Source: Fluviicoccus sp. (GTDB taxonomy: Bacteria; Pseudomonadota; Gammaproteobacteria; Pseudomonadales; Moraxellaceae). From it: DNA of 64,000 bases. The notes under the pieces are model-generated. The model was not told the DNA's origin, did not search any database, and saw only the letters and a list, made by a program, of their open reading frames with translations. The position numbers and the translations under genes were made by a program. Of the stretch, positions 51,411 through 64,000 are shown in pieces. The stretch covers positions 62,001 through 126,000 of the forward strand of contig NZ_JAUSMX010000005.1 in assembly GCF_030646115.1 (NCBI RefSeq), given 5' to 3'. Positions within the stretch are counted from its first letter, which is position 1; every line of letters begins with the position of its first letter.

Positions 51411-52631
51411 ATGTCCCAGATCAAGAAGGTCGTGCTGGCCTACTCGGGCGGTCTTGATACCTCCATCATTCTCCGCTGGCTCCAGGAAACCTACGGTTGC
51501 GAAGTCGTGACCTTCACCGCCGACATCGGTCAGGGTGAGGAGCTGGAACCTGCGCGCGCCAAGGCCGAGGCCATGGGCGTCAAACAAATCTTCATTGACG
51601 ACCTGCGCGAAGAGTTCGTGCGTGATTTCGTCTACCCGATGTTCCGCGCCAATGCGGTTTACGAAGGCGAATACCTGCTGGGCACCTCCATTGCGCGGCC
51701 GTTGATTGCCAAGCGTCTGGTTGAAATTGCCAAGGAAGTGGGCGGCGACGCCATTTCCCACGGCGCTACCGGCAAGGGTAACGACCAGGTGCGTTTCGAG
51801 TTGGGCGCGTATGCGTTGACGCCCGGCATCAAGGTGATTGCGCCGTGGCGCGAGTGGGACCTGAACTCCCGCGAATCGCTGATGAACTATGCCGCCGAGC
51901 ACAACATTCCCATCGACTTCAACAAGGCGGGCAAGAAATCCCCGTACTCGATGGACGCCAACCTGCTGCACATTTCCTATGAAGGCGGCGGCCTGGAAGA
52001 CCCGTACTGGGAGCCGGAAGAAGACATGTGGCGCTGGACCGTCAGCCCTGAAAAGGCCCCGGACGCTCCGCAATACATTGAGCTGACCTACCGCAAGGGC
52101 GACATCGTTGCCATCGACGGCGTGGAGATGAGCCCGGCGACGGTGCTGGCAACTTTGAACCAGTTGGGCGGCAAGCATGGCATTGGCCGTCTGGACCTGG
52201 TGGAAAACCGCTATGTTGGCATGAAGAGCCGTGGTGCGTATGAAACCCCGGGCGGCACCATCATGCTGAAGGCTCACCGCGCCATTGAATCCATTACGCT
52301 GGACCGCGAAGTGGCCCACCTAAAGGACGAGTTGATGCCGCGTTACGCCAGCCTGATTTACAACGGTTACTGGTGGAGCCCGGAACGCCTGATGCTGCAG
52401 ACGATGATTGATGAGTCGCAGCATTATGTGAACGGTGTGGTGCGCGCCAAGCTGTACAAGGGCAATGTCTACATTGCCGGCCGCAAGTCGGAAGATTCCA
52501 TTTTCGACGCCAATATCGCTACGTTTGAAGACGATCGCGGTGCGTACAACCAGAAGGATGCGGAAGGGTTCATCCGGTTGAATGGTCTGCGTCTGCGGAT
52601 TGCCGCCGGCAAGGGTCGCAAGCTGATCTGA
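51411..52631 (+). CDS. argG: argininosuccinate synthase
   Basis: Joins citrulline and aspartate with ATP in arginine synthesis. 406 residues with ATP pyrophosphatase P-loop [10 protein letters not shown] (residues about 10-19), the [15 protein letters not shown] block for citrulline and aspartate, and [10 protein letters not shown]. Full length. A TAGAAT -10-like box lies 40 bp upstream. It ends in a strong terminator beyond which the accessory island begins. Confidence 0.97.
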
Positions 52632-52650
52632 TCCGCGTCAGATGGTAATG

Positions 52651-52685
52651 AAAAGGCCTTCCCCGGTGACGGGGAAGGCCTTTTT
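52651..52685 (+). terminator. rho-independent terminator after argG
   Basis: AAGGCCTTCCCC and GGGGAAGGCCTT form a 12-bp stem followed by a T-run, 20 bp after the argG stop. Confidence 0.95.
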
Positions 52686-52698
52686 GCTTGATGGCCGC

Positions 52699-52760
52699 CT
52701 GCAACCGAGCGCTGTTCTTCACTTACGGATATCGGTTCATCAAGCCCTTCGCCGGTTTTC
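52699..52760 (-). pseudogene. decayed copy of the 3' end of the DUF58 gene
   Basis: Read on the minus strand, this stretch translates to KPAKGLMNRYP, a stop, then VKNSARL. This aligns with the last residues of the intact DUF58 protein at 58095 (KLAVGLVNRYLEVKRSGRL). The DNA alignment is gap-free over the last 48 bases, with about 70% identity by eye, and includes the position of the terminal stop. It lies 14 bp after the argG terminator, in the same orientation as the intact gene 5.4 kb away. Confidence 0.72.
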
Positions 52761-53070
52761 TGCGGGGTGGCAATGTATGGTTACAATCCGGGGTGGGCGA
52801 ATTAAGGGCTTGGATTGTCGCTTTTGCTCTTTTGACTTACAGTAAAGTTATTGAAAATCAGTGCTTTGGCGGTGGCGTTGAGAGTTATGCACCAAGCCAG
52901 GGGAATTATGACACCATTTTTGGTGTCGAATACAAAGTATGTATTTTGGAATGGCGGGTTCCGACCCGAAGCGGACAGCTGTGCTGAACGATGCTGGCTC
53001 TTGATAAACGGGATAGTTTTATCACTCTTATCCACAATAGCTCTTCATGGGCGGACCACAAGGATACTAA
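52761..53070. other. non-coding leader of the accessory island
   Basis: No supported gene. The stretch is AT-richer than its surroundings. It holds an 18-bp perfect hairpin GACACCA-TTTT-TGGTGTC at 52910-52927, and GTTATGC at 52884-52890, which is one base off the integron core consensus GTTRRRY and is a candidate left edge of the first cassette. A GAAGCGGACA decamer at 52968-52977 recurs inverted at 57482-57491. I cannot point to a convincing promoter for the following gene. Confidence 0.5.
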
Positions 53071-56000
53071 ATGGAAGGCCATGTTCCGTTAGATCGCGAA
53101 TTTTCATCTGTCTACAAAAGTGAAAAAGAAGCGGAGAGTGGCGAATTCCTCTCGGCCTGGGGGCATGCCAAACCGATAACATGGGACGGGATGGAGGAAA
53201 AATACCGCTGCATCATATTAGCGGAAGCGGGCGCGGGGAAGACAGAGGAGTTGCGGCAACGTGCCAATTCCCTTGCGGGCGAAGGAAAAGTAGCCTTCTT
53301 TCTCCGAATTGAAGATATCGAAACTGATTTCTATACCGCGTTTGAAATAGGCACAGAAGCCCAGTTTCACGCATGGCTGCAGTCGACGGACGAAGCATGG
53401 TTTTTCCTGGATTCTGTCGATGAGGCTCGCCTAGATCACCCGAGAGCCTTCGAGAAGGCTCTTCGCCGCTTTGCCAGGGGGATTGCAAATGGTGCGCACA
53501 GAGCGCATATCTACATTTCGAGTCGTCCCTACGCATGGCGGCCAAATGAAGACCAAAGGCTTGTAGATGAGCTTCTGTATCTCCCCGCTGCACAGACAGA
53601 AGAGGATGGGGAAGGTGATCGGCAAGCCACGCCGCAAAGCGCCCTCACAGTATTCACTATGCGCCCTTTGGATGAAGGGCGGATTCGGCGTTTCTGCGTT
53701 GCTAGAGCGGCAGAGAATGTCGACGCCCTGCTCAGGGAAATCGATCGTGCCGACCTTTGGAGTTTGGCGGAGCGTCCATTTGACCTTGAAGGCATATTGG
53801 CCAAATGGGCTGAGGACAACGCTCTAGGCGGCCGTTTGGACTTGCTCCGCCATAACATCGATAAGCGCCTACGCGATGCGCACAGTACTGACAGGGCGCA
53901 GCGTCAACCCCTGAATCTTGAACAAGCAAGAGAGGGCGTGCGAAGCTTGGCTGCTGCGGTCGTACTGACCGGGCAGGCGGGCCTTAATGTCCCGGATGCT
54001 ACGCCGCTCAAACTTGGGGTTGACGCAGAAGCCGTCCTCGCTGATTGGAATCCCGAAGATGTTCGGGCTCTACTTGAACGTGGAATTTTCAACGACATTA
54101 TTTATGGGGCAGTACGGTTTCGCCATCGGGAGGTGCGCGAGTTGCTTGCTGCCGAGTGGCTCTCTGGCCTGTTGAGGTCGGGCAACAGTCGCCACTCAGT
54201 CGAAGCGCTCTTCTTCCGTGAGCAATATGGGCAAGAAATTGTAACCCCTCGACTTCGAGCAATATTGCCTTGGCTCATCCTGTTTGACGACGAGATTCGG
54301 CGCAAAGCGCTTCAGATTCACCCTGAAATTGCTGTCGAAGGTGGCGATCCATCACGCCTACCATTGGCAGAACGACAGGAGATATTGGTAGGCATCGTCC
54401 AGCGCATCACTTCGGATCAGGATGATCGCTCCGCACGAGACAATAGTGCAATCGCGCGAATCGCTAATCTAGACCTCTCGGACAACGTTCAGCAGCTCAT
54501 AAACGCCTACGCCGACAATGATGACGCCATCTTCTTTCTAGGCCGGCTGGCCTGGCAAGGAGAAATGATAAGTTGCGTGGCCTCTTTGGTTCCCATTGCA
54601 GCAGATGGTTCTCGGGGAATTTACGCCCGAATAGCATCGGCACGCACGGTGATGACTTGCGGGGCCGCAGAGCAAAAACAAATTTTGTGGCAACAACTTA
54701 TCGATGGCGATGACCCGATTCCCCGTGAGCTGCTCGCAGAGCTAGTGGAAGAAGCTTCGCCTGATAGTGAAGTTGTTGAAAAACTGGTGATTGCACTGGG
54801 CAAGCTACCATCTTATGAAAGGTTCGAAACCAACGGTCTTGTCGGCGCCCTACACAGCTTTGTGGAAGGTTTGCCGATTGCTGACGATCAACAGGCTATA
54901 ACCCACTTTATACGTGGTCTACATGCTTATCTGGAGCAGCCACCTTATATCGAGAGGCGAGAGTGTCATGTCTCGGAGGAATACGCATGGCTGCTTGGTC
55001 CAGCCTCTCACGCGGTGGAAAAGCTAGTTGCCGCTCGAAGCGAGGCTGCCCTAAACGAAACATTTTTTTCCATCATGCTAATGGTTACAACCTTACGCCA
55101 TTGGCAGGACGAAGATCTCAGGGAGTACAAAACCAGGCTTCTTTCGCTTGTCCCCGCATGGCCAGAACTTAATGACTCCCTTTATTGGTTCAGCATCGAA
55201 CAGGCTCGATTAGCACAGGCCGTACGTACAGGTGAACCCTTGACTGATGATTGGCCAGCTTCGTGGACAGGCCCCTTCTGGAAATTCGATGTCGACAGTT
55301 TTCCAAGGCTGCTCAATTATATTGGTTCCCGCTCGCTGCATGATGACAGGTCGGTTGCACTGAGCACAGCGTACCGGGTCTATCTGCAAAATGACAGGCC
55401 AGCGGAAATTCTTGCCCATCTACAACATGCCATTGCTGATGATCCTGTCCTGACGAATCAGTTGGTACTGCTGCTCAACCCGCCGGTAACGGAGACTGTT
55501 CGAAGGCACGAAGAAGAACATGCCGAATACCTACGGAGACAAGGTGAGAAGGAAGAGCGAGAAAAACAACAGCGCGCCAATTGGGTGGCGGAGTTGCGCG
55601 CCAATACTGCGTTGGTTCGCACTCCATCGGAAATAGAGCCGGGTGCACTAATTAACCATCAGTACTGGCTCATGCTCGAACTACATGATAGTGGATCAGC
55701 CACAGACCGCTATGAGTACGCTAACTGGCAGGCGCTGATTCCAGACTTCGGTGAGGGCGTCGCGCAAGAGTATCGTGATGCTGCCTTAACCCATTGGCGA
55801 CGCTATATCCCGCCCCTGGGATCGGAAGGGGGAAAATCTAACAGTGTGCCTTGGTCTTTAATCTTTGGCATGGCAGGCCTTGAGATCGAAGCTAGTGAGA
55901 TTACCGAATTCCCAGCGAATCTGACCACAGAAGAAGCGCGTTTAGCGTTGCGCTATATCACCTGGCAACTTAACGGATTTCCTGCTTGGTTTGAGCGCAT

Positions 56001-57366
56001 GTATCGAGCATTCCCAGACTTGGTCGAAGAGGCTGTGACCAAGGAGCTACTCTGGGAACTCAACCACACCGGCTCAGACGAGCCCATGCACTACATCCTC
56101 CATGACCTAGTCTACCATGCGCCTTGGCTGCATACTCGCATTGCTCCCGCGATACTGGAATGGGTCGAAGCCAACCCTTCAAACATTCACGCCTGCCGAC
56201 ACTACTGCCGACATATATTGGTTAATGGCGGAACAGACGCAGCAAGGCTTGCGGAGTTGGCAAACCACCAGATAGCTCAAGCAACAGACTTGAACCCTAT
56301 TGCGTGGTGGTATGCGCTTCGCGTCGATTGCGCCCCGGAAAGTGGCATACCTGAACTTGAACGGTGGCTTTCAGACCTTGATGATGATGCCGCAACATCT
56401 GCGGCCCAGGTATTCGTAACGACGCTTATGGGTGGAGGCCGATTGAGAGAAAGTGGCCCTACGTTTGGTCATTACCAAACAGTAGAGCATCTAAAATCAC
56501 TATATATCCTGGCACACCGATACATTCGTGCGGAGGATGACATCAACCGCGCAGGCGGGGGCGTGTATTCTCCACAGCTGCGCGATGATGCCCAAGATGC
56601 GCGAGGTGGCTTATTCAAACTCCTATCGGAAATACCAGGCAAAGCTACTTATACAGTCATCGAGCAATTGATCCACGAGCATCCGGACCCAAATCTTCGT
56701 CCGTGGATGGCCAAACAGGCATACAAGCGAGCTGAAGAGGATGGCGACCTTGAGCCTTGGTCCGCTGAGCAGGTCAACGCATTCGATAAGTCTCAAACAA
56801 TAACGCCCGCAACGCATCATCAGCTCTTCGACCTGGCTGTGCATCGCTTACAGGACCTAAAGAACTGGCTGGAACGGGGAAACGACAGCCCCTGGAGAAC
56901 CTGGAAGCGTGTCGACGGCGAAACCGAGATGCGCACATTGATAGCTGGCTGGCTCAACCAGCACTGCCGTGATCAATATACGACTGCACAAGAGCCAGAA
57001 CTCGCCAACAGCCAGCGCATGGATATCTGGTTGCAAAACACCAACGTGCACTCACCAGTTCCTATCGAGCTAAAGCTGCTAGAGAAAGGCTGGAGCGGAC
57101 CAGATCTTTGTGAGCGGCTACGAAACCAATTGGCGGGTGATTACCTCAGAGAGGAAAGTGCGGGATGCGGCGTAATGCTGTTGGTCTGGCAAGGAAATAT
57201 CGCCGCTAAACGATGGACGATTGGTGGGCACAGGGTTGAATTGAGCGAATTGGCCAGTGCCCTAAAAGGTTATTGGCTAGAGATTTCAGCCGATTTCCCT
57301 GGTGTGGACGTGATCGAAGTTATGGTAATAGACCTGACATTACGAGAACACGCCTCAGATTCATAA
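53071..57366 (+). CDS. NACHT/STAND-like NTPase with C-terminal PD-(D/E)XK nuclease-like domain
   Basis: A 1431-residue protein, unlike the surrounding genes in its many A/T-ending codons. Walker A is AEAGAGKT (51-58), Walker B FFLDSVDEAR (111-120) and a sensor-like HIYISSRPYAW (147-156): together the NACHT/STAND pattern. Only about 45 residues precede Walker A, so no effector fits there. Residues about 300-1270 are probably helical repeats (sensor-like), with a charged coiled stretch near 811-845. The C-terminus has Asp1318 in RMDIW, Glu1333-Leu-Lys1335 in PIELK, and a downstream NQLAGDY, matching the PD-(D/E)XK nuclease core. STAND proteins of this sort sense phage components and trigger a toxic effector; that role is inference. 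AAGGA lies 6 bp before the ATG. It is followed by an attC site. Confidence 0.82.
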   Translation: MEGHVPLDREFSSVYKSEKEAESGEFLSAWGHAKPITWDGMEEKYRCIILAEAGAGKTEELRQRANSLAGEGKVAFFLRIEDIETDFYTAFEIGTEAQFHAWLQSTDEAWFFLDSVDEARLDHPRAFEKALRRFARGIANGAHRAHIYISSRPYAWRPNEDQRLVDELLYLPAAQTEEDGEGDRQATPQSALTVFTMRPLDEGRIRRFCVARAAENVDALLREIDRADLWSLAERPFDLEGILAKWAEDNALGGRLDLLRHNIDKRLRDAHSTDRAQRQPLNLEQAREGVRSLAAAVVLTGQAGLNVPDATPLKLGVDAEAVLADWNPEDVRALLERGIFNDIIYGAVRFRHREVRELLAAEWLSGLLRSGNSRHSVEALFFREQYGQEIVTPRLRAILPWLILFDDEIRRKALQIHPEIAVEGGDPSRLPLAERQEILVGIVQRITSDQDDRSARDNSAIARIANLDLSDNVQQLINAYADNDDAIFFLGRLAWQGEMISCVASLVPIAADGSRGIYARIASARTVMTCGAAEQKQILWQQLIDGDDPIPRELLAELVEEASPDSEVVEKLVIALGKLPSYERFETNGLVGALHSFVEGLPIADDQQAITHFIRGLHAYLEQPPYIERRECHVSEEYAWLLGPASHAVEKLVAARSEAALNETFFSIMLMVTTLRHWQDEDLREYKTRLLSLVPAWPELNDSLYWFSIEQARLAQAVRTGEPLTDDWPASWTGPFWKFDVDSFPRLLNYIGSRSLHDDRSVALSTAYRVYLQNDRPAEILAHLQHAIADDPVLTNQLVLLLNPPVTETVRRHEEEHAEYLRRQGEKEEREKQQRANWVAELRANTALVRTPSEIEPGALINHQYWLMLELHDSGSATDRYEYANWQALIPDFGEGVAQEYRDAALTHWRRYIPPLGSEGGKSNSVPWSLIFGMAGLEIEASEITEFPANLTTEEARLALRYITWQLNGFPAWFERMYRAFPDLVEEAVTKELLWELNHTGSDEPMHYILHDLVYHAPWLHTRIAPAILEWVEANPSNIHACRHYCRHILVNGGTDAARLAELANHQIAQATDLNPIAWWYALRVDCAPESGIPELERWLSDLDDDAATSAAQVFVTTLMGGGRLRESGPTFGHYQTVEHLKSLYILAHRYIRAEDDINRAGGGVYSPQLRDDAQDARGGLFKLLSEIPGKATYTVIEQLIHEHPDPNLRPWMAKQAYKRAEEDGDLEPWSAEQVNAFDKSQTITPATHHQLFDLAVHRLQDLKNWLERGNDSPWRTWKRVDGETEMRTLIAGWLNQHCRDQYTTAQEPELANSQRMDIWLQNTNVHSPVPIELKLLEKGWSGPDLCERLRNQLAGDYLREESAGCGVMLLVWQGNIAAKRWTIGGHRVELSELASALKGYWLEISADFPGVDVIEVMVIDLTLREHASDS

Positions 57367-57536
57367 GTGGCTATGCCTATGGGCTCGGAGCAAGAACTAA
57401 ATCGAAGCGCAAAGCCCCCACTCGGCGGATTCTGGAACTTCCAGGACAGGTTGATCGATTGCCTAGGGCTGAGGTTGCGAATGTCCGCTTCTGTCCGCAA
57501 GCAGATGTAGAGAAAAATAGTAAAGTGATCTAAAGC

Positions 57537-57593
57537 ACATAACAAGGTACTCCAGCCGATCACTAACGCGCCGGCTGAGTTTAAACGTTAGGC
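57537..57593 (+). repeat. integron attC site 1
   Basis: R'' ACATAAC (one base off RYYYAAC) at 57537-57543 and R' GTTAGGC (exact GTTRRRY) at 57587-57593. Between them CTCCAGCCG (57549-57557) pairs with CGGCTGAG (57572-57579), leaving one unpaired base, the extrahelical-base arrangement that orients attC recognition. The 57-bp size is that of short attC sites. It lies between the NTPase gene and the next cassette gene. Confidence 0.85.
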
Positions 57594-57600
57594 CCTTAGC

Positions 57601-58032
57601 ATGACTATTCTCCAAGACCTTACATCACGAGACGCTAATCGCATTTGGTCTGGTGCATGCGCGGTCCGTACCCTTCGCGATAGGGATGAGCTTCATCTCT
57701 TGGCCTCCCATATAGGCGAGATCCGCGAAGCAACCCGCGCTGTATCGTTGGGCGGGGCCTTACGCCCGAACTCAAGCCATCTGGATTTCGCCATTCGCAA
57801 GTTGGAGTTTGTGAAAGACCCAAGCGCATGTCTTTGCGCGCTGTACACAATGGACGATCTCTACGACCCTACGAGAGAGCAAGAGTCGGGGAACGTGAAG
57901 ATTCTTGGCACAACACTCCTAGACGGAGGGTGGGTTGATTTCTATGAGTGCGAGTGTCTGGAGTGTGGAGCCAGGTATCGGGTTGAGGAGCGCGAATATC
58001 ATTACACTTGGTGGGCGTGGAAACGGGCCTAA
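57601..58032 (+). CDS. integron-cassette protein of unknown function
   Basis: A 143-residue soluble protein I cannot assign to a characterised family. The N-terminal two thirds look helical (LRDRDELHLLASHIGEIREATRAV; LDFAIRKLEFVKDPSACLCALY). The C-terminus carries YECECLECGARYRVEEREYHY, a CxCxxC knuckle that might bind zinc or simply form a beta-hairpin. The ATG is 8 bp after the R' core of attC 1 without a clear ribosome site, common for cassette genes, and the stop codon lies inside the R'' box of attC 2. That tight fit identifies it as a cassette gene. A role with the NTPase upstream is possible but unsupported. Confidence 0.8.
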   Translation: MTILQDLTSRDANRIWSGACAVRTLRDRDELHLLASHIGEIREATRAVSLGGALRPNSSHLDFAIRKLEFVKDPSACLCALYTMDDLYDPTREQESGNVKILGTTLLDGGWVDFYECECLECGARYRVEEREYHYTWWAWKRA

Positions 58033-58087
58033 CTCGTTGCAGGCCCGACGGCCCCGACGGGCCGCGGCCTGAACTCAAACGTTAACC
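58027..58087 (+). repeat. integron attC site 2
   Basis: R'' GCCTAAC (58027-58033, exact RYYYAAC) overlaps the stop of the cassette gene; the right core is GTTAACC (58081-58087), one base off GTTRRRY. TTGCAGGCC pairs with GGCCTGAA with one bulged base, and an inner CGGCCC/GGGCCG stem closes the hairpin. Bases after the G at 58081 should belong to the recipient flank, which explains the imperfect right core. Confidence 0.85.
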
Positions 58088-58094
58088 CCCAACC

Positions 58095-59399
58095 CTACAA
58101 CCGCCCACTGCGCTTCACCTCCAAATACCGGTTCACCAACCCCACCGCCAGTTTTTCCGGCTCAGTATCCAGCACCAGCACCCCCGCATGGCTCAACGCA
58201 TGCAACTGCCGCTGCCGCAACGCCAGATAATCCTCCGCCGCCGCCAGCGTAAAAGCCTCATCCACATCCGCCGCCGACTGCGCATGCAGGGTAGTAAACA
58301 AATGCTCACGCAAGGTCGCCACCAGCACCAAATGCCGACGGCCCAGCACCCGGCAGGCCTCCTGCAAATCCCGGCCGTCCTCATCCCGCACATTGGTCAG
58401 AATCACCACCAGCGAACGCTTGCGCAACCGCCCGGATAACACCTGCACCGCCCGCAGAAAATCGGGCGTACTGTCAGTAGGCTCCAGATCAAACACCCGG
58501 TTCATGATCGCCTTGACCACATGCGCACCCTTGGCCGGAGCCAGATAACGGTCGGTGCCGGCAAAGGTCATCAACCCCACCGCATCACCCTGATGGCTGA
58601 CTGCATGCGCCAGCAGCAACACGGAATTCAGCGTCTGGTCAAAGTGCGACAACGCATCATCCTGCGCGCGCATGCGGAAACCGGTATCCAGCATCAGCAA
58701 CACCTGCTGGTCGCGTTCGTCTTGATACTCGCGGGAGATCAGCTTGCGCAGCCTCGAAGTCGCTTTCCAGTCCACCTGGCGCGGCGAGTCGCCCAGCCGG
58801 TATTCCCGCAACTGATGGAACTCCAGACCTTCACCCCGACGCGGCCGCACCCGGATACCCAGTTGCGACAGCCGGTTGTCGGTGGCGAGCAGGGTGTAAC
58901 GCGCCACTTCCGCAAAATTGGGATAAACCCGGAACGTGGACGGCAACTCAATGCGGCGGATCTGGTTGAACAACCCGAAGCGGGCGGTCAGCCGGATTTC
59001 GCACAACTCGATTTCCCGTTCCCCGCGTTGCAGGCTGCGCGCCTTATAACGCAGGTGCAGCACCTTGCCCGCCTTCAGCGTCACGGTGGCGGGCAAACCC
59101 TGGCTTTCCATGGCTTCCGGCAAGTGTTCCTGAATGTCCAGCCGGGTGGAGCCGATGCCGCGTTTCACCAGCGACAATTCCACGGTTTGCCACACAGCCA
59201 GCGGCCAGATGGCGGGCAGCTCGCGCTTGATGCGGGGTGAGGGGGTGGCAATGAGGCCGAGCAGATCCAGTGCCGCCAACACTGCCAGCACCACGGGAAT
59301 GGCTTGCCAGACCGGCGTCAGCCGTGACTCGATCAGCGTCAGCAGCCCCACAAGGAGCCACAGGGCCAGCGCGGCCAGCAGGCGGCGGGTGGGTTGCAT
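58095..59399 (-). CDS. DUF58 domain-containing protein
   Basis: 434 residues: two N-terminal transmembrane helices (about 8-52), a beta-rich middle, and the DUF58 domain (LEFHQLREYRLGDSPRQVDWKATSRLRKLISREYQDERDQQVLLMLD, about 190-240) with a vWA-like fold after it. The metal site expected as DxSxS reads LMLDTGFRM, so it is degenerate. DUF58 proteins are encoded with MoxR ATPases and are thought to help assemble or activate target complexes. Last gene of the operon; its stop is 7 bp from attC 2. Confidence 0.92.
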   Translation of the reverse strand: MQPTRRLLAALALWLLVGLLTLIESRLTPVWQAIPVVLAVLAALDLLGLIATPSPRIKRELPAIWPLAVWQTVELSLVKRGIGSTRLDIQEHLPEAMESQGLPATVTLKAGKVLHLRYKARSLQRGEREIELCEIRLTARFGLFNQIRRIELPSTFRVYPNFAEVARYTLLATDNRLSQLGIRVRPRRGEGLEFHQLREYRLGDSPRQVDWKATSRLRKLISREYQDERDQQVLLMLDTGFRMRAQDDALSHFDQTLNSVLLLAHAVSHQGDAVGLMTFAGTDRYLAPAKGAHVVKAIMNRVFDLEPTDSTPDFLRAVQVLSGRLRKRSLVVILTNVRDEDGRDLQEACRVLGRRHLVLVATLREHLFTTLHAQSAADVDEAFTLAAAEDYLALRQRQLHALSHAGVLVLDTEPEKLAVGLVNRYLEVKRSGRL

Positions 59400-59408
59400 G
59401 CCCTGATC

Positions 59409-60416
59409 CTAGACGCGCGGCGCGGCGACGGATTGCAGGATGGCGGCAATCACGTCGTCGGTGTGCTGGCCTTCCATTTCCAGCTCCGGCGACAGCACCA
59501 GACGATGGCGCAGTGTCGGGGCGGCCAGTTGCTTGATGTCGTCGGGAATGACGTAGTCCCGGTCGTCCAGCAAGGCCGAAGCCCGTGCCGCGCGCAGCAG
59601 GGCGATGCCGCCGCGCGGCCCGGCGCCGATGTCGATGCCCGGCCAGTCCCGCGTGCTGCGCACGATCTGGGCGGCATAATCACGCAGGGCGGGGTCAATG
59701 CGCACCTGCGCCACCAGCAACTGGATGGCGTGCAGTTCTTCCGGGGAAATCAGGGTTTGCAGGGCGTCAATGTCGAGGGTGTCGCCCATCTTGCCGTCCG
59801 TGACCAGCGACAGCAGCCGCTGTTCTTCCTGCAAAGTGGGGTAGCCGATCACCACTTTCAGCAGGAAGCGGTCCAGTTGTGCTTCCGGCAGTGGATAGGT
59901 GCCTTCTTGTTCAATCGGGTTCTGGGTGGCCATGACCAGGAAGGGACGTGGCAGCGGGCAGGCCTGGCCGTCAATCGTGACCTGGTATTCCTGCATCGCT
60001 TCCAGCAGCGCCGCCTGGGTCTTGGCGGGGGCGCGGTTGATTTCGTCCGCCAGAACCAAGTGACTGAACACCGGCCCGCGACGTACGTGGAACTGTTCGC
60101 TTTTCAGGTCATAAAGGGCATGGCCGGTCACGTCGCTGGGCATCAGGTCGGGGGTGAACTGGATGCGGTTGAAGGTGCCGCCGAAGGTCTTGGCCAGGGC
60201 GCGTACCAGCAGTGTCTTGCCCAGACCGGGGACGCCTTCCACCAGCACATGCCCTCCGGCCAGCAATGACACCAGCACCTGCGTGACGGCATCCTGCTGG
60301 CCCACCAGCGCCTTGCCGATTTCGCGCTGCATGCGGCGCACGGACTGCGTGGCCAGACGGAAAGCGGAAAGGTTGTCGTCCTCAGGTGCCTTGGACAGGG
60401 AAATCGGGTCGGTCAT
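59409..60416 (-). CDS. MoxR family AAA+ ATPase
   Basis: 335-residue AAA+ ATPase with Walker A VEGVPGLGKTLL, Walker B VLADEINRAPAKTQAALLEAMQE, sensor MATQNPIEQEGTYPLPEAQLDRF and the C-terminal lid domain. MoxR proteins act as chaperone-like ATPases, often with vWA or DUF58 partners. Its start overlaps the DUF4350 stop by 4 bp, and the DUF58 gene follows 9 bp later. Confidence 0.94.
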   Translation of the reverse strand: MTDPISLSKAPEDDNLSAFRLATQSVRRMQREIGKALVGQQDAVTQVLVSLLAGGHVLVEGVPGLGKTLLVRALAKTFGGTFNRIQFTPDLMPSDVTGHALYDLKSEQFHVRRGPVFSHLVLADEINRAPAKTQAALLEAMQEYQVTIDGQACPLPRPFLVMATQNPIEQEGTYPLPEAQLDRFLLKVVIGYPTLQEEQRLLSLVTDGKMGDTLDIDALQTLISPEELHAIQLLVAQVRIDPALRDYAAQIVRSTRDWPGIDIGAGPRGGIALLRAARASALLDDRDYVIPDDIKQLAAPTLRHRLVLSPELEMEGQHTDDVIAAILQSVAAPRV

Positions 60417-61540
60417 GTCAGTTTCCGGAGTTGGTCAATAACGCGCATGTCCTGCAGGAAACGCGCGAGGTCGTTGGTGGGCGGAGTGTTCAGGGCCTGA
60501 TGCAGCGGGCCCGGCTCCAGGCCGGTATGTCGGTGCAGCTCTTCGATCAGGCGGTTGTCAGGCAGCAGCCGCCAGTGCGGATGATGGCGGAACAGATGCA
60601 GGCGCAGGCTGTGGCGGACGGCGGCATAGAGCCGGGACTGTTGTCCGGCATACCACAGGAAGCGTCCGGCGGCCTGCAGGTGTTCAGCCAGACGGCGGCG
60701 GGGCTGGTCGGGCGAGGGCAGCAAGGGACCGAAGCGGCGGTTGCCGTAGCCAAGCAAGGCCAGCAGCAGCACGCCCAGGCTGATGATGGGCAGCCGGGCC
60801 TGGTGCCACAGGATTTCCATGATGCCGGGAAAATCCCCTTCATAAACCAGCCATACCTTGGAGGAACCAGGTAAGTCGTTGAACAAATGCAGCCACAGGG
60901 CGGAATTATCCTTGAAATTAAGCTGCCGGTTGCCGAAGAGGGTGGTTTCACTCAGCACCACGACTTCACCGTCACCCAGCTCATAACGCAGCACATGGAT
61001 GCCGCTGCCGTCGTACAGCAATTCGGTGGCTTCATCCAGGGAATCCTCCAGCACCAGCCGGGACTGGAAGCCGGTATTCAGCCAGCCTGCTTCCGGACTC
61101 AACAGCAGGCGCTTGTCGTCGGACAGCCTTTCCTCGTGATCTTCCTCCAGATAGTCATGGAGGACGACACCGAGTTCGGAGAGCAGCGGGTCGCGGCTGC
61201 GCTTCTTGCCATTGCCCAGATACTGGGCGGGAAGAACCAGCCGGTTGCCGCGCCGCACCCAGGCCAGCAGCGGCGCAATCTCCGCCGGGGGCAGGGCGCC
61301 CGCATACGAGGAAAGGAACAACACGCCCTGACCGGATGGCGCGCCGCTGAAATCAGGCTGGAAACTGACCTTTATCCCCTGTTTTTCCAGCAGACGCCCG
61401 GCTGCCAGGTAGTTATTGCGTTTGGCGGCGTCACTCCAGCCGGAAGAGGTTTCCACAGGAACCACCTCAAACAGCAGCGTGCCCAACCCGGCCAGCAACA
61501 GCACCAATACCACCCCAAGCACCCGGGACGACGGCTTCAT
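60413..61540 (-). CDS. DUF4350 domain-containing protein
   Basis: 375 residues: an N-terminal membrane segment (about 7-24), the DUF4350 domain (about 45-230; NNYLAAGRLLEKQGIKV, LLAWVRRGNRLVLPAQYLG), a second membrane helix (about 262-282) and a basic C-terminal region. Function unknown; the family occurs in MoxR/DUF58 operons. ATG 61540 overlaps the DUF4129 stop by 4 bp. Confidence 0.88.
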   Translation of the reverse strand: MKPSSRVLGVVLVLLLAGLGTLLFEVVPVETSSGWSDAAKRNNYLAAGRLLEKQGIKVSFQPDFSGAPSGQGVLFLSSYAGALPPAEIAPLLAWVRRGNRLVLPAQYLGNGKKRSRDPLLSELGVVLHDYLEEDHEERLSDDKRLLLSPEAGWLNTGFQSRLVLEDSLDEATELLYDGSGIHVLRYELGDGEVVVLSETTLFGNRQLNFKDNSALWLHLFNDLPGSSKVWLVYEGDFPGIMEILWHQARLPIISLGVLLLALLGYGNRRFGPLLPSPDQPRRRLAEHLQAAGRFLWYAGQQSRLYAAVRHSLRLHLFRHHPHWRLLPDNRLIEELHRHTGLEPGPLHQALNTPPTNDLARFLQDMRVIDQLRKLT

Positions 61541-62325
61541 GGTCCGGTCCTCCGCTGGAAGTGCCGGCGATAGGCGTCGGTCAGCCGGTTGAAGCTGTCC
61601 GGGGCGTGACCGGCCCAGGCGGTATCCAGCCAAGCGCGGGTAATCTGGGTGAAGCTGTCGATGACTTCCGGCGTTTGCTGCTGGCGCACCTGCCGCAGGT
61701 TTTCCTGCTCGGTGGCGGGAACAGGCAATTGCAGTGACTGCACGGCGCCGCGATACAACAGGCTGAAGGCCGAGCGGCGGTCACCGCGCTGCCATTCACG
61801 CTCGGCGGCGGACAGGATGTCGTCGGGCAGGGGAGCCAGAACAGGCTCATCGCTTTCCGTCACTTCAGCCACCGCCGGGGACGGCTGCTGGATGCGGAGG
61901 CCAAGACGCTGCAATAGCGGCAACCATTTGCGCCGATACCAAACGGCGGCCAGGATCACCGCCAGTGCCAGCAGCCACAAGGCGTGCCCAACAATAAAGC
62001 CCACCATATTGCCCAGGATGTCCACAAACGGCAGGGGGGAATTCGTCTTTTGGGATTTGTCCTTCTCCCATTTCCAGTCCTTGAACCAGTCATATTTGAA
62101 ACGCAGTTGCCGGGTGGTTTTCTTGTGTTCGAAATCCGGCCCTTCCAGCACGGCCTTCAAGGCCTGACGGGCAGGCTCGGCTTGCGGAGAGCGTGCGACA
62201 CCTTCGGGAATATGGGTGGATGCGTCTTGTGCTTCTGCAGTCACCGGGCTTTCAACTCTGGCCATGGCGCTGGAAAGGCCGAGGGCCAACAACAGGGGCA
62301 GGGCTTGCAGATGTGCTCTCGTCAT
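61537..62325 (-). CDS. DUF4129 domain-containing protein
   Basis: 262 residues with a signal peptide (about 1-24), a soluble periplasmic stretch, one transmembrane helix (about 112-135) and a C-terminal DUF4129 domain (about 175-255) with RSAFSLLYRGAVQSLQLPVPATEQENLRQV. Function unknown; DUF4129 proteins are commonly encoded beside MoxR and DUF58 genes, as here. ATG 62325 is chosen because it starts the signal peptide. Confidence 0.88.
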   Translation of the reverse strand: MTRAHLQALPLLLALGLSSAMARVESPVTAEAQDASTHIPEGVARSPQAEPARQALKAVLEGPDFEHKKTTRQLRFKYDWFKDWKWEKDKSQKTNSPLPFVDILGNMVGFIVGHALWLLALAVILAAVWYRRKWLPLLQRLGLRIQQPSPAVAEVTESDEPVLAPLPDDILSAAEREWQRGDRRSAFSLLYRGAVQSLQLPVPATEQENLRQVRQQQTPEVIDSFTQITRAWLDTAWAGHAPDSFNRLTDAYRRHFQRRTGP

Positions 62326-62326
62326 T

Positions 62327-63088
62327 TCAGTCGCGTCCTGCCGGTGAAATGCGCTCGGCGAGACGGCGGAAGGCAATTTCGATATCCCAGGCTTCGAGGT
62401 CGGTGCGACGGTTCAGGTACAGCATGAAACCGGCCGCCACGTAGAACGGCTCCACCAGCGTGATGGTCAGGCCGTAGATCAGCACCAGCACGTCCCGTTT
62501 CCAGTCTCCGGCCTGGGCCTCCAGGAAATCCGACACTACCTTAATGTCCTGAAAGGCGGGTGACATCCAGACCAGCAAACTGAGCAGGCCGAAGAAGACT
62601 GACATTTCCGCCGCCATATAGATCTGGATCAGCCAGCGGGCGCGTCCGGTCTGTTGATGGCGCATCAGCCGGATGCGCTCATCCTGCGCGGGGCCTGTCA
62701 AGTCTTCCAGCAATCTCACCGGCAGTACATAGGCGCGACTGAGGCTGAAACGGCGCAGGGTCAGCGCTCCCAACAGGCCCTTGCCGAAAAATCCGGGAAT
62801 GGCGGCCAGGCTGGCGCCCAGCGTGACTTTTTCGCCAAAGACGGCTCGGCTCAGCACCCACAGCACGGCATAGTCCAGCAAGGGTTTCAGCCACCACAAC
62901 ACAAACAGTCCGATCAGGCGGCCGGTGCTGTGCTCCAGCCATACCAGGGCGGCCACCAGCGGAATCATCAGGGCGCACCACAGGCGCATCACCGCGGTGC
63001 GGCTATCCTGCAGCAAACGCACGCCCAGATCGGCGGCTTCCCACGGTTTGCGCGGGCGTATGGCGACAGTCAGGCGATCAATGCGCAT
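62327..63088 (-). CDS. membrane protein of the MoxR/DUF58 operon
   Basis: 253 residues with about five hydrophobic segments (about 37-75, 85-105, 115-130, 165-185, 205-225). I do not recognise a named domain. The soluble N-terminus reads MRIDRLTVAIRPRKPWEAADLG and the C-terminus ends in a short amphipathic stretch (LEAWDIEIAFRRLAERI). Similar proteins are found between SpoIIM-like and DUF4129 genes in related operons. It starts 11 bp inside the SpoIIM-like gene and ends 1 bp before the DUF4129 gene. Confidence 0.8.
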   Translation of the reverse strand: MRIDRLTVAIRPRKPWEAADLGVRLLQDSRTAVMRLWCALMIPLVAALVWLEHSTGRLIGLFVLWWLKPLLDYAVLWVLSRAVFGEKVTLGASLAAIPGFFGKGLLGALTLRRFSLSRAYVLPVRLLEDLTGPAQDERIRLMRHQQTGRARWLIQIYMAAEMSVFFGLLSLLVWMSPAFQDIKVVSDFLEAQAGDWKRDVLVLIYGLTITLVEPFYVAAGFMLYLNRRTDLEAWDIEIAFRRLAERISPAGRD

Positions 63089-64000
63089 GTTGCCTCCTTC
63101 CGGCCAGCCCCAGCCAGGCAATCACCGACGACCATGCGATGGCCGCCACGGTGTATTTGACTTCAGCGGGAATGGAGGTGCTGGAGGACCAGAAGCTTTC
63201 CACCCCGGCCGCCACCAGAAAGAGCATGGCGGCCCCATAGACGATGCGCACCGCCTCCCGGCCGCGCAGGATCAGCGCGTCCTTGCGCGTATGCTGACCG
63301 GGCGCCACCAGCCCCAAGCCCAGCATCAGGCCCGCCATGCCGGACAGCACAATAGCGGTCAGTTCAAACGCGCCGTGGGTGGCGACAAAGGGCAGGAAGG
63401 TTTCCTGATAACCAATATGGGTCAGGTGCCCGGCCACCGCGCCAATGGCCAGGGCGTTATACAGCAGGAAGAACAGGCTGCCGATACCGGCAAACAGCCC
63501 ACCGGCGAAGGTCTGGAAGCCGATGCCGGTATTATGTTGCAGGTAAAAACCGAACATCATGAAGTGGGTGTCGTTGGCGCGGCCGCCGATCAGGTGCTGA
63601 CCGGGCTCGTACATGGATTCGTACTGGCGAACCTGCTCGGCGGGAATGACGCTGTAAACCAGCTCGGGCTGCATCCAGATGGCGGCGGCCATGCCGAACA
63701 GCGGCAGGTAAAAGAAGGCGGCGGACAGCCAGAAGAGGCCGGCGTGCTGTCGCACCAGTACCGGAAATCCCCGGCTGAGGAAGTCCAGGAAGGCGGGCCA
63801 CAGGCCGCCCTGATGACGGTACAAGCGCTGCTGTCCGGCCAGCACCAGCGTGTTCAGCCGTTCCACCATGGCCAGCGGGTAATGACGGTCACGCGCCAGC
63901 GCCAGATGGGCGCAGATTTCCCGGTAGCGGGAGGGAAAATCGGCCTGATCGGTTGGGTCGCCCCCGTGCAGCAAGGTTTCAAAGCGCTGCCAGTCCTGTT
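63078..64000 (-). CDS. SpoIIM-like (stage II sporulation protein M family) membrane protein, 5' end outside window
   Basis: The frame stays open to the window edge; 306 residues are visible, beginning QDWQRFETLLHGG, typical of the soluble N-terminus of these proteins. About seven membrane helices follow, with the family's FGFYLQHNTGIGFQTFAGGLFAGIGSLFFLLYNALAIG and THGAFELTAIVLSGMAGLMLG blocks. In non-sporulating bacteria SpoIIM-family proteins occur in MoxR/DUF58 operons; function unknown. A TTG at 63974 is in frame but too far downstream to be the start. Confidence 0.9.
   Translation of the reverse strand, partial: QDWQRFETLLHGGDPTDQADFPSRYREICAHLALARDRHYPLAMVERLNTLVLAGQQRLYRHQGGLWPAFLDFLSRGFPVLVRQHAGLFWLSAAFFYLPLFGMAAAIWMQPELVYSVIPAEQVRQYESMYEPGQHLIGGRANDTHFMMFGFYLQHNTGIGFQTFAGGLFAGIGSLFFLLYNALAIGAVAGHLTHIGYQETFLPFVATHGAFELTAIVLSGMAGLMLGLGLVAPGQHTRKDALILRGREAVRIVYGAAMLFLVAAGVESFWSSSTSIPAEVKYTVAAIAWSSVIAWLGLAGRRQHAH

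Follow-up and report, generated by a model that had tools for sequence, protein, structure and literature searches.

A probable integrase-less integron fragment with an attI-like site and two gene cassettes in a Fluviicoccus sp. genome

Organization and gene content of the locus

The stretch of DNA analysed here (the window; 64,000 nucleotides, G000:C3:62001-126000, i.e. positions 62001-126000 of contig C3) comes from a draft genome assembled into 39 contigs that total 3,891,634 bases, with a completeness of 97.7% and a contamination of 0.24%, which is the sole member of its genus among the genomes compared. Coordinates given without a contig name are those of the window. The locus lies between two host genes, one encoding an argininosuccinate synthase (51411..52631, + strand; PF00764 and PF20979) and the other a DUF58 protein (58095..59399, - strand; PF01882, E 1.4e-26), and contains, in this order, an attI-like site of a type designated B (52764..52943, +), a 4,650-bp cassette (52937..57586, +), a first attC site (attC1), a 494-bp cassette (57587..58080, +) and a second attC site (attC2). 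The boundaries of both cassettes were derived from core positions, the first cassette extending from the attI-like core to the R' box of attC1. The whole insert sits between direct repeats of 62 bp that are 74% identical: the right copy (58094..58155, +) is the intact 3' end of the DUF58 gene and starts 6 bp past attC2, while the left copy (52698..52759, +), which is located outside any intact gene, is a worn version of the last 62 bp of that gene (46/62 identical, ungapped, to 58094-58155). No Rfam match was found in positions 52000-64000.

Because an attI-like site occupies the left end of the locus, the 4.3-kb gene located upstream of attC1 (53071..57366, +) can be viewed as the cargo of the first cassette. 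Its 1,431-residue product resembles nSTAND NTPase 5 only weakly (E 0.014, which does not reach the curated cut-off) and has no counterpart at E<=1 among the solved structures of the PDB; relatives occur in 60 plasmid records, the similarity covering 80% or more of the protein in 37 of these, and the best identity is 61.8%. The second cassette carries an ORF of 143 residues with no known family (57601..58032, +), whose stop codon (58030-58032) falls inside the R'' box of attC2, as an earlier note on this DNA had pointed out. A search of 369 genomes of the class returned a single relative of its product besides itself (37%), and the plasmid collection yielded another (44.7%), with no adjoining attC at E<=2 at the loci of the relatives (L208, L210). 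PADLOC gave no match for either cassette protein. For the gene of 1,431 residues, a relative on a Vibrio plasmid has two weak attC-like matches in its surroundings, at distances of ca. 2.2 kb (21.4 bits) and 2.8 kb (16.2 bits), which were not counted as attC. On plasmid pVPS92-VEB, which carries the gene's closest plasmid relative, weak attC-like matches surround an acetyltransferase gene (L209 1077-1784) ca. 2.2 kb ahead of that relative. Taken by itself, the window locus, with its pair of attC sites and pair of cassettes, is nothing out of the ordinary.

The two attC sites

The earlier note had proposed the two attC sites from the DNA letters and had named a covariance search beforehand as the test. 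A set of 24 attC sites adjoining integron integrases in other genomes of the same family served to train a covariance model, R1, the window sites and all other sites of the genome under study being excluded. Over the 64 kb, R1 returned two matches at E<=5, which correspond exactly to the proposed sites: attC1 (57537-57593, +; 31.8 bits, E 9.6e-5) and attC2 (58027-58087, +; 28.4 bits, E 5.1e-4). Both matches span all 77 model positions, and the orientation claimed relative to the preceding genes holds. In a control set of 80 loci from other genomes (1,133,184 bases), R1 produced four matches at E<=10, three of which form one tandem group in L091 (30.3, 27.1 and 22 bits), the remaining one scoring 19.5 bits. 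The members of this tandem trio look like true attC sites; they are located near a DUF58 gene of an uncultured gammaproteobacterium (L091 11839-13252).

The consensus boxes of attC sites are RYYYAAC for R'' and GTTRRRY for R'. The R''/R' cores described in the earlier note are present in both sites, although each site is one base off the consensus, in R'' for attC1 (ACATAAC) and in R' for attC2 (GTTAACC). In single-strand DNA folding, attC2 exceeded its dinucleotide shuffles in stability, with z about -3 (-2.9 and -3.1; bottom strand -3.07), and attC1 is no more stable than its shuffles (-0.1 and -0.6; bottom strand -0.62), so that the identity of attC1 relies on the model and not on hairpin stability. 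A close relative of attC2 exists on contig C33 of the same genome (93% identity over 46 bp); for attC1, no comparably similar partner was found among the loci of this genome that were compared. The suggestion that the two sites came from different sources is not established, given the resemblance of attC2 to an attC of its own genome. Overall, the model matches argue that both are real integron recombination sites.

Search for an integron integrase

A whole-genome search with the integron integrase profile TIGR02249, whose matches also include ordinary tyrosine recombinases, gave eight hits at E<=0.001. None was on contig C3, which agrees with the earlier claim that no integrase lies near the sites, and none in the genome exceeded the model's own cut-off, so that no intact intI was identified. 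The only integron integrase found is a relic on contig C15, in which profile positions 1-93 and 294-315 occur in one frame, positions 94-293 are absent and the N-terminal Pfam domain is the only one detected, indicating that the catalytic middle has been lost. In this relic (C15:65.3-65.9k; L009 9345-9908), the N-terminal domain is fused in frame to the last 22 profile positions, and a DUF6602 cassette with an attC is located on its other side. A tyrosine recombinase on contig C1 was considered as a possible IntI and dropped, since its neighbour is an IS91-type transposase; both genes (L081 13000-15214) are found just after a type-B site, following a GAAC motif which we take to be the IS91 target.

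Since the assembly is a draft with contig breaks inside cassette regions, an intact intI may have been missed. One such break is the start of contig C3 (L083 1-120), where the ORF that follows an attI-like site of the second type (type A, see below) enters a 9-bp tandem repeat at the contig end. Contig C7, for its part, breaks off ca. 170 bp past an attC. The caution that clusters of attC sites lacking integron integrases (CALIN) are overstated in draft genomes, expressed in the available part of PMC9024848, is valid for the genome considered here.

Genome-wide occurrence of attC and attI-like sites

As suggested in the earlier note, the search for intI and further cassettes was extended to the whole genome. 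R1 detected at least seven attC sites of 28 bits or more, two additional matches of 19.6 and 18.6 bits being left out of the counts. Long attC sites escape R1, and a second model, R2, was therefore trained on 16 such sites from one related genome (G004); it revealed at least ten further sites (eight at 88-112 bits and two at 32-35 bits). This amounts to at least 17 attC in 10 regions, distributed over contigs C1, C3, C7, C14, C15, C18, C23 and C33, with the intI relic at C15 only. The whole-genome searches with R1, R2 and the model R3 described below scored the best 150 of 1975, 491 and 401 first-look candidates, respectively, so that weak att sites may have been missed. On C18, a second, broken attC (L050 1427-1480), 36 bp of which match the C33 attC at 83%, was seen by eye before a 128-residue ORF.

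The left end of the window locus (52764-52938) is ca. 71% identical over 128 bp to a stretch preceding the cassette locus at C14:205.6k. A sequence-only model, R3, was made from four aligned type-B stretches (window, C14:205.6k, C1:280.8k and C23:20.5k) and found at least 17 matches at E<=1 in its own genome, 14 of them at E<=0.001; 1.13 Mb of DNA from other gammaproteobacteria and further sources gave no match at E<=10. Five matches are strong (84.9-131.4 bits) and consist of the four training copies, including that of the window (131.4 bits over 52764-52938, a score that is not independent since this copy belongs to the training set), and of a new copy at C1:306,882 (84.9 bits) located directly before three long attC sites (C1:307-309 kb). 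All five have an attC downstream within ca. 5 kb; for the C1:280.8k copy an IS91-type element lies in between. The other 12 matches are weaker, down to 13.5 bits, and since the one at C18 is alone in having a recognised attC nearby, some of them may not be integron parts. Among the 13 non-training matches, seven end in the core form A(A/G)AGTTR, with GTTR kept, and in 11 the first ATG ORF of at least 50 residues starts within 34 bp, both counts being given without a random control. On contig C23, eight type-B copies ranging from weak to strong occur within 24 kb (C23:2.8-27 kb; L201, L202), mostly directly before a small ORF and with one recognised attC only.

In the window the core itself is mutated: positions 52937-52943 read GTATGTA, in place of the GTTAGGC of other copies, and a G/TTRRRY core is therefore not found at the cassette boundary. 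The site is placed before the first cassette and not beside an intI, and type B was never observed beside one. In other genomes of the family, the attI located next to an intact intI shows an inverted repeat followed by AA(C)GTTAG at its end, a comparison that overstates uniformity because only stretches passing a motif filter were kept; without the filter the core was found in 10 of 13 loci, L021 having none and L024 and L025 being unreadable. R3 reaches the attI of relatives weakly, in one genome of those searched (14.7 bits, E 0.0042). A promoter scan of the window site found nothing. The idea that type B represents a transposon end or a MITE was dropped, as the C1:306.9k copy shows a GTTAGGC core before long attC sites. 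The R3 copies, their core form, the similar ending of intI-side sites in relatives and the match of R3 to one of these all point to type B being an attI, and positions 52764-52943 are accordingly designated, from sequence, as a putative attI-like site with a mutated core.

Together with type A, about twenty attI-like copies of two types are present in the genome. Type A is found at C15 between the integrase relic and its first cassette, as well as at C14:54k, C3:0.4k, C33:211k and C3:53.7k (contig coordinates), and its copies extend into the first codons of intI and end at that point. An attC was detected with R1 or R2 within ca. 4 kb after three of the five (C15, C14 and C33); at C3:53.7k there is a degenerate attC trace only, and at C3:0.4k the contig ends. 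A search of 148 other family genomes returned neither type, a single 21-bp match excepted. The usual description of an integron assigns one attI platform to each array, which makes about twenty scattered insertion sites unusual, and the open-licence literature yielded no description of many dispersed attI sites in one genome. A genome with about twenty such sites, mostly located directly before a small gene, would mean that cassette genes can be laid out, and perhaps expressed, chromosome-wide, and would offer a concrete case of how attC clusters lacking an integrase originate. No hairpin of the window was found to recur as an ordinary terminator, the items that do recur being attC sites beside attI-like sites.

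Direct repeats flanking the insertions

No shuffle out of 5000 attained the alignment score of the window repeats (44), and 11 of 20000 random pairs taken from loci of the same genome did, the latter possibly including other known repeats. Searching from 600 bp upstream to 7 kb downstream of each attI-like site, a direct repeat at E<=0.001 was detected for 7 of 22 sites, compared with 18 of 400 random anchors. In four of the seven the repeat is within 160 bp of the attI-like site, and in the other three it is more than 500 bp upstream. Besides the window, flanking repeats occur at C23:20.5k (78 bp, 94% identical, with additional 38- and 26-bp pieces that extend it to about 280 bp), at C14:54k (120 bp, 91%) and at C3:53.7k (146 bp, 91%). 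The repeat ends no more than 5 bp from the left edge of type B at both the window and C23:20.5k, and at two type-A loci it ends 135-160 bp before the type-A edge. Comparison with relatives gave no pre-insertion state: the best DUF58 relative has 55% identity, and an argininosuccinate synthase gene beside a DUF58 relative was found in 0 of 80 loci, many of which are cut by contig ends.

Nature and origin of the locus

According to the available part of PMC9024848, a CALIN consists of at least two neighbouring attC sites with no integron integrase beside them. The window has two such sites and no integrase match on its contig, and the designation as a CALIN given in the earlier note holds in this sense; it is incomplete in that it covers neither the attI-like left end nor the wider set of about ten attC regions to which the locus belongs. 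The attC sites and the attI-like site, their order and the absence of intI are features of the window itself, and a like arrangement occurs at other loci. The locus is very probably an integrase-less integron fragment, made of a worn attI and two cassettes with their attC sites, that belongs to a family of dispersed units lacking intI, each composed of an attI-like site and one or few cassettes. An integron integrase would once have inserted the cassettes at the window attI by attI x attC recombination. They would now be frozen in place, given the mutated attI core and the lack of any known intact integrase in the genome, yet an integrase supplied in trans could still excise the attC sites.

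How such units became dispersed can be explained in two main ways. The first, put forward here tentatively, is that a main integron gave rise to copies of its attI and first cassettes at many places, via replicative template switching or reverse transcription of a cassette transcript, with a left end fixed near the intI start, a variable right end and a duplicated target. Type-A and type-B copies each begin near the intI start (located 93-257 bp from the core in relatives, with start codons set by rule of thumb), the repeat abuts the type-B edge at both type-B loci having one, four loci are flanked by repeats of 62 to 146 bp, and no long similarity exists outside att sites among the cassettes of the six loci compared. 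A reverse transcriptase is also available, the gene at C33:115.6k (L206 1294-2535) encoding a group II intron reverse transcriptase/maturase that is the genome's only RVT_1 match; group IIC-attC introns have been proposed, in the portion of PMC7923331 available, to aid cassette formation by a different route. Such copying is less easily reconciled with the small share of sites having a nearby repeat (4/22, and 7/22 over the whole span searched, three of these being more than 500 bp away), with the gap of 135-160 bp at the two type-A loci, and with the fact that neither a source integron nor an empty site is known.

In the second explanation, which on present evidence is about as likely as copying, many integrons were acquired separately by horizontal transfer and each then lost intI and most cassettes, the sites being alike because the donors were related. 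intI is commonly lost or in decay, with pseudogenes making up nearly a third of intI genes according to the part of PMC2426708 available, an intI relic persists at C15, and two attI types with two attC size classes fit several sources. This explanation is harder to reconcile with the absence of types A and B from the 148 other family genomes, bar the 21-bp match, and with the observation that all copies are cut near the same intI point.

Dispersal through copying, as opposed to separate acquisition of many integrons that then decayed, is an inference. A more detailed scheme, in which integron platforms spread as attI plus the leading cassette, with a fixed start near the beginning of intI, a variable end after the cassette and target duplications of ca. 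60-280 bp, possibly through a group II intron reverse transcriptase acting on the cassette transcript or possibly through template switching, is in itself rather unlikely. In this scheme a single cell would possess many independent places where cassettes can land, all of them served by one integrase acting in trans; units copied with a fixed left end and duplicated targets would represent a new way to spread cassettes.

Insertion of single cassette circles into non-integron sites (attG), which would yield a CALIN, is a very improbable origin. Such insertion is reportedly known for cassettes, Loot et al. 2024 being said to describe it, but it would neither bring a 180-bp attI-like sequence common to unrelated loci nor duplicate 62 bp of target, and the left side of the window insert is that 180-bp sequence rather than unrelated host DNA joined to a cassette at G/TT. 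Finally, the poor folding of attC1 and the single core deviation in each site would suit chance hairpins, terminators or an ordinary intergenic repeat, a reading that is hardly tenable given that R1 finds exactly both sites with a clean control and that R3 recovers a new copy before long attC sites with no match in 1.13 Mb of other DNA.

Comparison with known systems

The locus shares with attG-inserted cassettes, which are mentioned in the available part of PMC12444791, the presence of cassettes outside an integron, but no common attI-like sequence would be expected at the target of the latter. Delta-attI-type gene cassettes, as presented in the portion of PMC12901181 available, likewise involve an extra partial attI outside the main platform; there it is part of the cassette, located downstream of the ORF and found in clinical mobile integrons, whereas the attI-like sites described here are upstream and dispersed in the chromosome. 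With CALINs, which the part of PMC12444791 available reports apart from the main integron in roughly half of the Xanthomonas genomes, the window has in common two tandem attC sites and no intI nearby, and it differs by an attI-like site at the first cassette, by about twenty such sites in the genome and by direct repeats flanking some of them. A sedentary chromosomal integron with an inactivated intI resembles the locus in having attI, cassettes and attC sites in the usual order next to a dead or lost intI; the genome described here contains, instead of one array, many short arrays, and an attI-like site belongs to each.
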